A stretch of DNA of 64,000 nucleotides. It comes from Candidatus Koribacter versatilis Ellin345 (lineage in GTDB: Bacteria; Acidobacteriota; Terriglobia; Terriglobales; Acidobacteriaceae). The position numbers and the translations under genes were made by a program. The stretch is from contig NC_008009.1 in assembly GCF_000014005.1 (NCBI RefSeq), positions 1,488,001 to 1,552,000 of the forward strand, in the 5' to 3' direction. Below are positions 10,624 to 39,098 of the stretch, in pieces (position 1 is the stretch's first letter; each line of letters begins with the position of its first letter). The notes beneath the pieces were generated by a model. That model was not told where the DNA came from. It saw nothing but the letters and a program-made list of their open reading frames with translations, and searched no databases.

Positions 10624-11406
10624 ATGACATTCGAAAACATTCTCTACGAAGTAAGAAATCAGATCGCTTACGTCACCATCAATCGCCCGAAGGTCCTCAA
10701 CGCGCTCAGCATCGCCACCATCGGCGAGATCGGGCAGGCGATGCAGGCCGCGAAGGACGATGCCAACGCGCATGTCGTCATCCTCACTGGGTCAGGTGAG
10801 AAGGCTTTCGTCGCGGGTGCCGACATCAACGAACTGAAGACCGCTACAAGCGAAGTCGGCAAGCAATATGCGCTGCGCGGACAGGCCGTGCTGAGCTTGC
10901 TCGAAAATCTCGGCAAGCCTGTCATCGCGGCTGTTAACGGTTTCGCCCTCGGCGGAGGCTGCGAACTGGCGCTCGGCTGCACGATGCGCTTCGCTTCGGA
11001 TAACGCGAAACTCGGACAGCCCGAAGTGAAGCTGGGCATCATGGCCGGTTTCGGTGGCTCGCAACGCTTGCCGCGACTCGTAGGGCGCGGGATGGGCATG
11101 CAGCTTCTCCTCACCGGCGAGACCATCACCGCGCAGGAGGCTCTGCGCATCGGACTGGTGAATGCGGTCGTTCCGCAAGCCGAGCTGATGGCCTATGTCG
11201 AGGGCGTGGCAGCGAAGATCATCGCCAACGCTCCGCTGGCGATCCAGTACACGATGGAGGCGGTGAATCACGGCGCCGATATGACGCTCGCGGAGGGGCT
11301 CTATCTCGAAGCGACACTTTTCTCGATCACATGCGCGACGGAAGACAAGAACGAAGGCACGTCGGCGTTTCTCGAGAAGCGGGGAGCGACGTTTAAGGGA
11401 AGATAA
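10624..11406 (+). CDS. Enoyl-CoA hydratase/isomerase (crotonase family)
   Basis: A 260-residue crotonase-fold protein. It has the oxyanion-hole segment (AFVAGADINEL), the GFALGGGCELALGC motif with the first catalytic Glu, and GQPEVKLGIMAGFGGSQRLPR with the second Glu. Both catalytic acids are therefore present and true hydratase activity is plausible. ATG 10624 gives MTFENILYEV, with GGAGAAGAGGA upstream. It follows the 3-hydroxyacyl-CoA dehydrogenase gene, so the pair would carry out two successive beta-oxidation-type steps. Substrate chain length cannot be read from sequence. Confidence 0.9.
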   Translation: MTFENILYEVRNQIAYVTINRPKVLNALSIATIGEIGQAMQAAKDDANAHVVILTGSGEKAFVAGADINELKTATSEVGKQYALRGQAVLSLLENLGKPVIAAVNGFALGGGCELALGCTMRFASDNAKLGQPEVKLGIMAGFGGSQRLPRLVGRGMGMQLLLTGETITAQEALRIGLVNAVVPQAELMAYVEGVAAKIIANAPLAIQYTMEAVNHGADMTLAEGLYLEATLFSITCATEDKNEGTSAFLEKRGATFKGR

Positions 11407-11706
11407 AAATCTTTAGCCACGAAGGACACGAAGGCATAACAAAGGAATTTTTGGGAATGGCGCGCGTGGGCGATTGGTGGGTGTTTCGTTCACGCGCTTT
11501 GTTCTGTAGGATGAATGTTTGGGCTTGGCTTGCTGACGCAATCAGTAGCAGGGGCTAAAGCCCAGTGATTCTGCGCATCTTTTCGGCACGACTAAAGTCG
11601 TGCCCTGATACAAATCGGCACAGAAGTCGTGCCCTGATACAAATCGGCACAGGAAGTCGTGCCTTGATACAAAACGGCACTGAAGTCGTGCCTTGATACA
11701 AAACTG
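11407..11706. other. 300-bp intergenic region with repeats before ribH
   Basis: No gene seen. The first 140 bp are unremarkable. The rest consists of a GGGGCTAAAGCCC-type palindrome and a four-unit tandem array that runs to 3 bp before the ribH start. Confidence 0.6.
11549..11703 (+). repeat. REP-like palindrome plus four-unit tandem array abutting ribH
   Basis: CAGGGGCTAAAGCCC (11549-11563) is followed by four contiguous units of 29-32 bp (starts 11584, 11616, 11645, 11675). Each begins CGGCAC, contains AAGTCGTGCC and ends TGATACAAA. Unit 1 carries the complete palindrome GGCACGACT-AA-AGTCGTGCC; units 2-4 lack 2-3 bases of its left arm. The array stops 3 nt before ATG 11707. It is not a CRISPR, since there are no unique spacers. 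Confidence 0.75.
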
Positions 11707-12636
11707 ATGATCAAGAACCTTCGTATGCTCCGCCTGGCGAAGAACAAGGCGGAGTTCCAGCAACTGAAGGAATTTTTCTCGCAGCTTGGGCTGCGCGATG
11801 GCGAGCATTGGGAAGCTCGCAGCAACAGCGGACACGTGTTTCTCGTCGAAGACGGCGGCATTGAACTCGGCGTCGGCGAAGGCTTTCCCGAGGCCGACCT
11901 GGTTTTCGAAGTCAACGACGCTGATGGTGTTTACGAGTTGCTGAAGAAAAAGGGCTGGAAGAAACTCGGTAAGCCGGAAGACCAGCCGTTCGGGGCGCGT
12001 TTGTTCACTGCGGAAGTTGGCGGGCAGAACGTCGCGTTCTACAACTACCTTCCGGAAAACCAGCATCACGTCGCCAAAGAGCGCGAAGCGACGCTCAATG
12101 CGCGAGGCAAGAGATTCGCATTGGTGGTGAGCCGGTTTAATAGCTTCATAACCGAGCGTTTGCTGGATGGCGCGCTTCTGGCGCTGCGTCACGCGGGTGT
12201 CGAGAAGCAGGACATGCAAGTTGTCCGTGTACCGGGCGCGTTTGAGATCCCCGGTGCGGCGCGGGCGCTGGCGGAATCCGGCAAATTCGACGGCATCATC
12301 ACGCTGGGCTGCCTGTTGCGCGGCGGCACGCTGCATTACGAAGTGATCGCGAACGAAGTGACTCGCGGAGTTGGACAATCTGCACAGGAAACTGGGGTGC
12401 CGCACGGTTTTGGCGTGCTTACCTGCGATACGCTGGAGCAGGCGATTGATCGCGCCGGGCTCAAAGCCGGAAACAAGGGCTACGAGGCTGCGATGGCCGC
12501 GATCGAAATGGTAAACCTGAAGTTGTCAGCAGAGCGTAAGCTGTCCAAGCCGGAGCCCAAGGCGAAAGCCAAAGATTTGATGAAAACGCGCGCGTTGACG
12601 CCGGTTAGAGCCGTGAAGCGCCAGGGAGAGAAGTAG
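11707..12636 (+). CDS. ribH: VOC-domain / 6,7-dimethyl-8-ribityllumazine synthase fusion
   Basis: Residues about 1-117 form a VOC (glyoxalase/bleomycin-resistance-like) domain (LRMLRLAKNKAEFQQLKEFF ... FEVNDADGVYELLKKKGW ... GQNVAFYNY). Residues 132-275 are lumazine synthase, the penultimate step of riboflavin synthesis. They include RFNSFITERLLDGAL, VPGAFEIP, GCLLRGGTLHYEV with the catalytic His near 210, and GNKGYEAAMAAIEM. A basic tail of about 35 residues follows. RibH alone is normally about 150-160 residues, so this 309-residue form is a fusion. The reading frame is open throughout and no separate RibH start has a ribosome site. nusB starts 2 bp after the stop, the usual ribH-nusB pairing. 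Confidence 0.9.
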   Translation: MIKNLRMLRLAKNKAEFQQLKEFFSQLGLRDGEHWEARSNSGHVFLVEDGGIELGVGEGFPEADLVFEVNDADGVYELLKKKGWKKLGKPEDQPFGARLFTAEVGGQNVAFYNYLPENQHHVAKEREATLNARGKRFALVVSRFNSFITERLLDGALLALRHAGVEKQDMQVVRVPGAFEIPGAARALAESGKFDGIITLGCLLRGGTLHYEVIANEVTRGVGQSAQETGVPHGFGVLTCDTLEQAIDRAGLKAGNKGYEAAMAAIEMVNLKLSAERKLSKPEPKAKAKDLMKTRALTPVRAVKRQGEK

Positions 12637-12638
12637 CT

Positions 12639-13079
12639 GTGACGATTAAAACGGGAACCCGCCGGAAGTCGCGCGAGTTGGCGCTCCAGATGCTTTTTCA
12701 AATGGATATGGGCAAGCAGTCGGCCGATCATGTAGAAAAGACTTTCTGGGCCGAACGGAAAGACCTGGAGGAAGAAGTCCGGAGCTTTGCGATCGATTTG
12801 TTTCATGTAGCCGAGAAGCGATCGGAAGAGATCGACAAGCTGATCGAGAAGCATGCCGAGCACTGGCGCATGGAGCGTATGGCGGCGGTGGACCGGAACA
12901 TCCTGCGCGGTGCATGCGCAGAGTTCATGGGTTTTCCGAAGACGCCGAAGCCGGTAGTGATTAACGAGTCACTGGAGATCGCACGCAGGTTTTCCAGCCC
13001 GGAGTCGGTGCAGTTCATCAATGGAGTTTTAGACAGCGTAGCGCGGGAGCTTGACGCAGAGCGCAAGAAGAAGTCGTAG
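12639..13079 (+). CDS. nusB: Transcription antitermination factor NusB
   Basis: A 146-residue all-helical NusB, which with S10 (NusE) binds boxA in rRNA transcripts. Typical segments are RRKSRELALQMLFQMD at the N-terminus and VDRNILRGACAEF ... VVINESLEIARRFSSPESVQFINGVLD at the C-terminus. It starts at GTG, 2 bp after the ribH stop, with GGGAGAG overlapping the end of ribH. Translational coupling is likely. Confidence 0.93.
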   Translation: MTIKTGTRRKSRELALQMLFQMDMGKQSADHVEKTFWAERKDLEEEVRSFAIDLFHVAEKRSEEIDKLIEKHAEHWRMERMAAVDRNILRGACAEFMGFPKTPKPVVINESLEIARRFSSPESVQFINGVLDSVARELDAERKKKS

Positions 13080-38723: not shown

Positions 38724-39098
38724 GTGGCTGCGCATCCGACGTCGCTGGTGCCAATGGCACACGTTGCGGACGTGCAGCGCACGATTGAGTTTTACAAGCT
38801 GCTCGAGTTCGAACTCCATAACAAATTGGAGTACGGAGGCGAGTTGAAGTGGGCGTACCTGGCGCGAGGCATGGCACAGATCATGTTCGCGAAATCCAGT
38901 GGCCCCATTGATTCGGAGCAGCAGGCAGTTCTGTTTTACCTGTACGCGAGCAAGGTCGTTCCGTATCGCGAACAGTTGATGGCGAAGGGGATCAAGGTAA
39001 GCGAATTGGAGTATCCCCCGTATGCCACCGAAGGTGAGTTTCGGGTCTTTGACCCAGACGGATATGTGCTTCTGGTAGGCGCCGCCAGCCAGAGGTAG
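38724..39098 (+). CDS. VOC-family protein embedded in the alpha operon
   Basis: A 124-residue glyoxalase/bleomycin-resistance-fold protein: LVPMAHVADVQRTIEFYKLLEFELHNK ... WAYLARGMAQIMFAKSSG ... VLFYLYASKVVPYREQLMAKGIKVSELEYPPYATEGEFRVFDPDGYVLLVG. The two beta-alpha-beta-beta-beta repeats are complete. The GTG at 38724 was used; ATG 38754 is an alternative. It sits 3 bp after rpsK and 85 bp before rpsD, on the same strand. Its substrate is unknown. It belongs to the same superfamily as the N-terminal domain of the ribH fusion but is not a close copy. Confidence 0.8.
   Translation: MAAHPTSLVPMAHVADVQRTIEFYKLLEFELHNKLEYGGELKWAYLARGMAQIMFAKSSGPIDSEQQAVLFYLYASKVVPYREQLMAKGIKVSELEYPPYATEGEFRVFDPDGYVLLVGAASQR

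Follow-up and report, generated by a model that had tools for sequence, protein, structure and literature searches.

The natural protein cage formed by lumazine synthase (RibH) has been studied in depth and serves also as a man-made display scaffold. A natural, recurrent N-terminal domain would show what evolution uses the cage surface for. The locus described here raises the question whether an acidobacterium makes this riboflavin enzyme with such a domain in front of it, and what the domain may do there. The window, the whole stretch of 64,000 nucleotides that was analysed (Candidatus Koribacter versatilis Ellin345, contig NC_008009.1, positions 1,488,001 to 1,552,000), contains an open reading frame at 11707-12636 on the plus strand, from ATG 11707 to the stop codon TAG 12634-12636, with a product of 309 amino acids. 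Coordinates, frame and length were correct in the initial annotation, which had proposed an in-frame fusion of a VOC domain to a complete RibH with a basic tail.

The RibH domain (residues 127-272; 12085..12522, plus strand) was delimited by Pfam, NCBIfam and PDB matches and by invariant residues. DMRL_synthase (Pfam) matched residues 135-272 with an E-value of 3.2e-52, and TIGR00114 (NCBIfam) scored 158.3 bits against a curated equivalog cut-off of 84.6; the latter lies well above its cut-off, and the two matches bear out a complete RibH. The best solved sequence match to this part was the lumazine synthase of B. anthracis, gapless and without insertion over residues 130-271. Residue 210, which we take to be the catalytic histidine and which had been placed near this position, and R249, K257, R143 and N145, presumably substrate and phosphate residues, were kept in all 67 distinct fusions of the conservation count (67 of the 78 distinct fusion proteins found in relatives, after removal of 11 identical proteins). 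At position 144, presumably of the same function, all 67 have F or W. With its catalytic residues intact the RibH part is predicted to be a complete lumazine synthase. Apart from the fusion, no RibH match turned up in the single contig of 5,650,368 bases that makes up the genome; the riboflavin synthase RibE is present elsewhere in the genome. The variable C-terminal tail (residues 273-309; 12523..12633, plus strand) is indeed basic, with 12 K/R and 4 D/E among the 34 residues 276-309; it was poorly conserved and had pLDDT values below 50 at 283-309.

The N-terminal part was harder to assign. Neither Pfam nor NCBIfam alone brought it over a cut-off: in the whole-protein search PF00903 matched residues 65-100 with an E-value of 0.026, below the Pfam gathering score, it reached E ≤ 0.01 in 8 of 36 relatives, and NCBIfam gave no match to the VOC part among these 36. 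A profile of the 36 relatives compared to the PDB yielded weak glyoxalase-related matches, the best being 3bt3_A (E 0.0031). The assignment was settled by the fold. The AlphaFold models had a mean pLDDT of 80.7 for the whole protein and 87.5 for residues 1-121, and a Foldseek search with the model of residues 1-121 returned five matches at E ≤ 0.001 with 2pjs_A at the top (E 2.3e-4). VIA-align, a second look at Foldseek's list in which rows within one Z unit count as tied, placed 2pjs_A at Z 11.4 over 107 residues; its PDB title states 'unknown function' only. Other rows were GloA2 (4mts, Z 10.3), TnmS3 with tiancimycin (10.1), TnmS3 with riboflavin (5umx_A, 10.0) and glyoxalase I (1f9z, 9.9), metal enzymes scoring level with binding proteins. 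Most of the 50 rows listed in this VOC-only comparison carried glyoxalase-, bleomycin-, fosfomycin- or dioxygenase-type titles. In the full-length comparison two of the 50 rows listed spanned the VOC part, the putative glyoxalase 3fcd_B (Z 12.2) and PA4183 (8aid_C, Z 11.5). The paired beta-alpha-beta-beta-beta fold was found in the models and the fold matches; DSSP assigned fewer strands in the VOC-only model than in the full-length model. The proposal that the first about 117 residues form a VOC domain held up, and the models, VIA-align and the sub-threshold PF00903 match characterise residues 1-118 (11707..12060, plus strand) as a divergent VOC-fold domain. A linker of eight residues (119-126; 12061..12084, plus strand), recognised by gappy or variable columns and pLDDT values below 50 at 124-128, connects it to RibH.

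The genome holds 28 PF00903 matches and the fusion is absent among them. In the own-genome search, a separate VOC-family match was observed at 38763-39071 on the plus strand (PF00903, E 8.2e-7). A close stand-alone donor was not detected in this genome, where the fusion's VOC profile matched only the fusion at E ≤ 0.001. When 151 genomes of the class were searched with the single VOC sequence, one weak match came from outside the family (G666, E 7.4e-4); this method is insensitive and recovered just 24 of 29 family genomes.

RibH had been said to have no such partner. This applied outside the family: of 151 genomes drawn from the class, 122 lie outside the family; 103 of these had a RibH match, and none of the 103 matches began before query residue 109. 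Inside the family it did not apply. In an even draw across the phylum (396 genomes) all 44 same-family genomes matched, 43 of them with an extension into the VOC part. Among 300 genomes drawn from the family the whole protein found a match in 278, while 22 had no RibH match; the VOC profile matched in 231 (215 at E ≤ 1e-10) and was without match in 69, figures that count profile matches rather than fusions. In one genus the match stopped short of the VOC part in 34 of 36 matching genomes. The domain pair was read locus by locus in a non-random set, taken from the best matches first, with 30 genomes picked mostly for a missing or weak VOC profile and one VOC-poor genus searched separately; duplicates by locus were set aside. 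The set comprised 90 in-frame fusion loci, equal to 78 distinct proteins, 48 RibH-only loci and one broken VOC frame. Left out were 13 loci that were duplicates or had been fetched again, 55 of the 66 loci of the outgroup, and L107 and L227 with RibH pieces below 140 aa, L227 being one more fusion. Fourteen of 80 loci (L031-L044) are acidobacterial bins by record name. The recurrence at 90 loci rules out a chance juxtaposition or a frame error, and the fusion is the commoner state within the family. Two loci from draft genomes, L212 and L226, carry a VOC remnant with a broken frame before an intact RibH, a result of decay or of an assembly error.

A nusB gene (12639..13079, plus strand), a conserved neighbour, starts 2 nt past the ribH stop, and a nusB match lay downstream on the same strand at 89 of the 90 fusion loci. 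Upstream, and outside the fusion, follows an open reading frame labelled from its sequence as enoyl-CoA hydratase-like (10624..11406, plus strand); such a match preceded the gene on the same strand at 44 of 90 fusion loci versus 43 of 48 RibH-only loci.

The history of the fusion was examined with a tree of the RibH domain (IQ-TREE quick mode, SH-aLRT; 158 rows, of which 146 differ, and 148 columns), in which many forks were weak. The 139 rows of the family grouped with a support of 98, with fusions at the family base. A nested clade of 51 (support 94) united 45 of the 48 RibH-only genes with six fusions whose VOC parts are divergent. On this tree at least seven changes between fusion and RibH-only state were needed, six by FastTree. 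One old fusion, followed by VOC loss mainly in one lineage, is the simplest history and is favoured; it is not proven, because the six fusions nest in a mainly RibH-only clade. The VOC domain is accessory, as part of the same family has a RibH without it. These close relatives with and without the VOC domain present a natural experiment, and with the fusion one can ask by experiment if an enzyme of riboflavin synthesis is able to bring along a ligand-binding module. In the literature searched, in which subscription journals were mostly missing, no published report of a natural VOC-RibH fusion was found among the matches listed. Each domain is known; their natural, recurrent combination is new among these matches.

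In RibH fold the protein resembles the icosahedral lumazine synthases 1rvv, 4v7g and 1hqk (Z 23.2, 21.8 and 23.1), with which it also shares the catalytic residues and most contact residues, but unlike these it bears about 120 more N-terminal residues as a folded domain. For the B. anthracis enzyme, PMC2935281 names Arg20, Glu23, Phe24, Lys28, Asp35, Arg39, Ile120, Glu121, Ile124 and Glu144 as contacts, which were mapped by +123 from the ungapped alignment. Arg20, Lys28 and Ile120 correspond to R143, R151 and L243, each kept in 67 of 67 distinct fusions. Glu144 (E267) was kept in 67 and Glu121 (E244) in 62 of 67, and Ile124 (I247) was I or L in all 67. At the Phe24 position F was present in 35, V in 31 and L in one of 67, and the Glu23 position was not kept among them. 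The positions of Asp35 and Arg39 were D and R in 52 of 67; the window has L158 and H162 there and differs in these residues from the icosahedral lumazine synthase contacts. Both termini of lumazine synthase face outward and fusions usually leave the icosahedral assembly intact, as PMC7369331 states. The engineered display fusions described there also place a folded domain on a RibH terminus, outside the particle; these are man-made, whereas the VOC-RibH protein is natural, recurrent and under selection. By a rough estimate, 60 spheres of 13 kDa would take up some 40 % of the shell immediately around a 157 A particle, which leaves room for 60 VOC domains. Since the catalytic residues and most icosahedral contacts of RibH persist, a 60-mer with the VOC domains on the outside is predicted. 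The earlier suggestion that the VOC domain sits on the shell is favoured to this extent, by the outward N-termini described in PMC7369331 and by the assembly contacts, most of which, though not all, are kept.

The VOC part contains a small set of conserved residues: among the 67 distinct fusions G28 was kept in 67, E68 and F100 in 66, W35 and R98 in 64 and E53 in 62. All six may be generic to VOC domains. A claim for a special pocket is weakened, because several of the conserved residues are common in VOC domains at large. In fold and size the domain is similar to TnmS1-S3 and to mitomycin- and bleomycin-binding proteins (Z 8.6 to 10.1), with which it shares the lack of a conserved glyoxalase-type metal site. 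All these proteins are free-standing and drug-binding, with 11-19 % identity over the aligned residues, whereas here the domain is joined to a biosynthetic enzyme. Binding-type VOC proteins hold planar drugs. TnmS3 was moreover crystallised with riboflavin, according to the PDB title of 5umx, a structural precedent that makes flavin binding by the VOC domain possible by analogy; the literature searched yielded no paper on this complex. Because of the planar drugs and of TnmS3 with riboflavin, small-molecule binding is ranked first among the roles of the VOC domain, a passive structural role second and an enzyme third.

In our preferred reading, the only RibH of the genome would be made as one chain of 309 residues with the VOC domain in front. 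Its RibH part would assemble as the usual pentamer, probably as the icosahedral 60-mer, and the VOC domains would decorate the cage outside via the short linker. The VOC domain would be of the binding type and not a metal glyoxalase. The most plausible ligand would be an aromatic compound or one of the flavin pathway, and the domain would serve to capture or buffer it or to regulate, on a RibH that is ordinary in other respects. Taken jointly, a one-chain fusion, a RibH cage with outer VOC domains and a small molecule held by them have in our estimation slightly less than an even chance. A more specific version, in which the 60 outer VOC copies serve as a flavin or lumazine receptor, is improbable; they would capture either the enzyme's product or riboflavin or a flavin, in order to buffer it, pass it on or exert feedback on synthesis. 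Within this version 30 VOC dimers would clamp or link the cage, if the VOC domains pair like free VOC proteins; given the odd number of VOC domains per pentamer, any pairing would have to occur across pentamers.

The best surviving alternative, unlikely but to be taken seriously, is a VOC domain without a ligand, serving RibH as a structural, spacing or solubility add-on. The VOC part diverges fast, with a median pairwise identity among the 67 distinct fusions of 30.5 % versus 69.2 % for RibH. This drift and the absence from part of the family, mainly from one clade, also fit a loosely constrained add-on, and the lack of a conserved glyoxalase-type metal site points the same way. It has to be set against the substitution rates of the nearest pair, the window and L031, whose full-length proteins are 88 % identical: dN was 0.066 and dS 1.169 in the VOC part, 0.061 and 1.091 in RibH, with a loose tail. 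In this one pair, on which the dN/dS comparison rests, purifying selection on the VOC part equals that on RibH. The retention of E68, R98 and F100 at 81, 85 and 89 of the 90 fusion loci, duplicates included, likewise disagrees with a ligand-free add-on.

An enzymatic VOC domain that would convert a pathway substrate or by-product, such as dihydroxybutanone phosphate or reactive dicarbonyls, is more doubtful. The fold is shared with the catalytic VOC enzymes GloA2 and glyoxalase I at the Z values given above. E53 and positions 5, 64 and 110 are, as we assume from a mapping by motif, the equivalents of the glyoxalase I metal ligands. E53, conserved in most fusions as noted, is the glutamate in common with 1f9z and 4mts, but the other three positions vary. 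As one of four ligand positions survives, a metal enzyme is unlikely, and the term glyoxalase, used for this domain before, is not supported in its catalytic sense. When nine VOC proteins of the genome were aligned to it by profile, the result agreed with the fold and was too loose for placing ligands. A metal glyoxalase as the identity of the domain was judged unlikely on these assumed positions.

The preferred reading presents the gene product as one chain; the contrary view, RibH from an internal start with the VOC part as a separate product, is very unlikely. The methionine at M1 was set by construction in the conservation alignment, and start-codon counts were used instead. All 78 distinct fusions had a start codon at the aligned M1 (72 ATG, 6 GTG; within 4 codons in three), at sites chosen near the alignment start. 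At codons -12 to +2 of the RibH domain, ATG occurred in just 4 of the 78 (5 of 90 loci), versus 62 of 66 control RibH genes. Counting ATG, GTG or TTG, 32 of 78 (35 of 90 loci) had a candidate there, mostly non-ATG, which leaves the internal start some room. In the window, TTG 139 is the lone candidate within 12 codons of residue 127; it falls within residues 137-142, the first core strand of RibH, and initiation at this codon would therefore truncate the fold.

A Shine-Dalgarno-like word (at least 4 letters of AGGAGG) 3-12 nt before M1 was found in none of the 78 fusions, and at 203 of 1560 control positions inside genes. Of 54 non-redundant upstream regions, 28 had the motif TANNNT, often as GATACAAT, with its first base 14 to 9 nt before M1; base shuffles gave a mean of 3.8, and none of 1000 reached 28. 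TANNNT about 12 bp before the start is the mark of leaderless genes, according to PMC3160421. Given this box in relatives, transcription in much of the family seems to start right at M1, and leaderless initiation may be widespread among these acidobacteria. At individual loci a GATACAAT or TACAAT-type box was seen about 12 nt before the ATG (L007, L008, L014-L018, L026, L027, L147, L148, L150, L153), and none of these fusion starts had a Shine-Dalgarno sequence. The window itself has no recognisable signal before M1, a point in favour of an internal start: TANNNT at -14 to -9, a Shine-Dalgarno sequence and a consensus promoter were all absent upstream. Instead, four copies of a repeat with the core AAGTCGTGCCYTGATACAAA and a spacing of 29-30 nt (11595..11702, plus strand) stand just before the start codon, outside the protein; the last copy before the start contains TGATACAAA. 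The exact core has 28 copies in the genome, many of them dispersed, and its reversed control none. Three GGCAC..GTGCC hairpins were detected in the array, scored on the minus strand. The start-codon positions and the promoter box before M1 in relatives make the internal RibH start unlikely. They strongly suggest translation from M1 as one protein, most likely with VOC joined in frame to RibH, as had been proposed. An assembly or annotation artefact, for which one may cite the many relatives from draft metagenome bins and the broken VOC frames of L212 and L226, is hardly credible against the single-contig genome here and 78 distinct fusion proteins, part of them from assemblies of one or two contigs (G241, G297, G329, G370). 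The fusion is genuine, of old origin and subject to selection.

The RibH-only genes showed a peculiarity of their own. Of the 48, which lie among L157, L158 and L170-L225, 33 lacked an ATG in the stretch from the in-frame stop to the RibH domain; nine (L170, L173, L189, L191, L193, L195, L205, L213, L220) had no ATG, GTG or TTG in this interval. In the lead of the RibH-only genes GTC before ACG was most often observed, sometimes ATC. A non-standard start codon is possible for the genes lacking a usual one. Up to 160 nt upstream, 20 of the 48 carried a CCACGGAGGCAC...GTCACGGAGAAA-like repeat, and the lead was often located inside this repeat.
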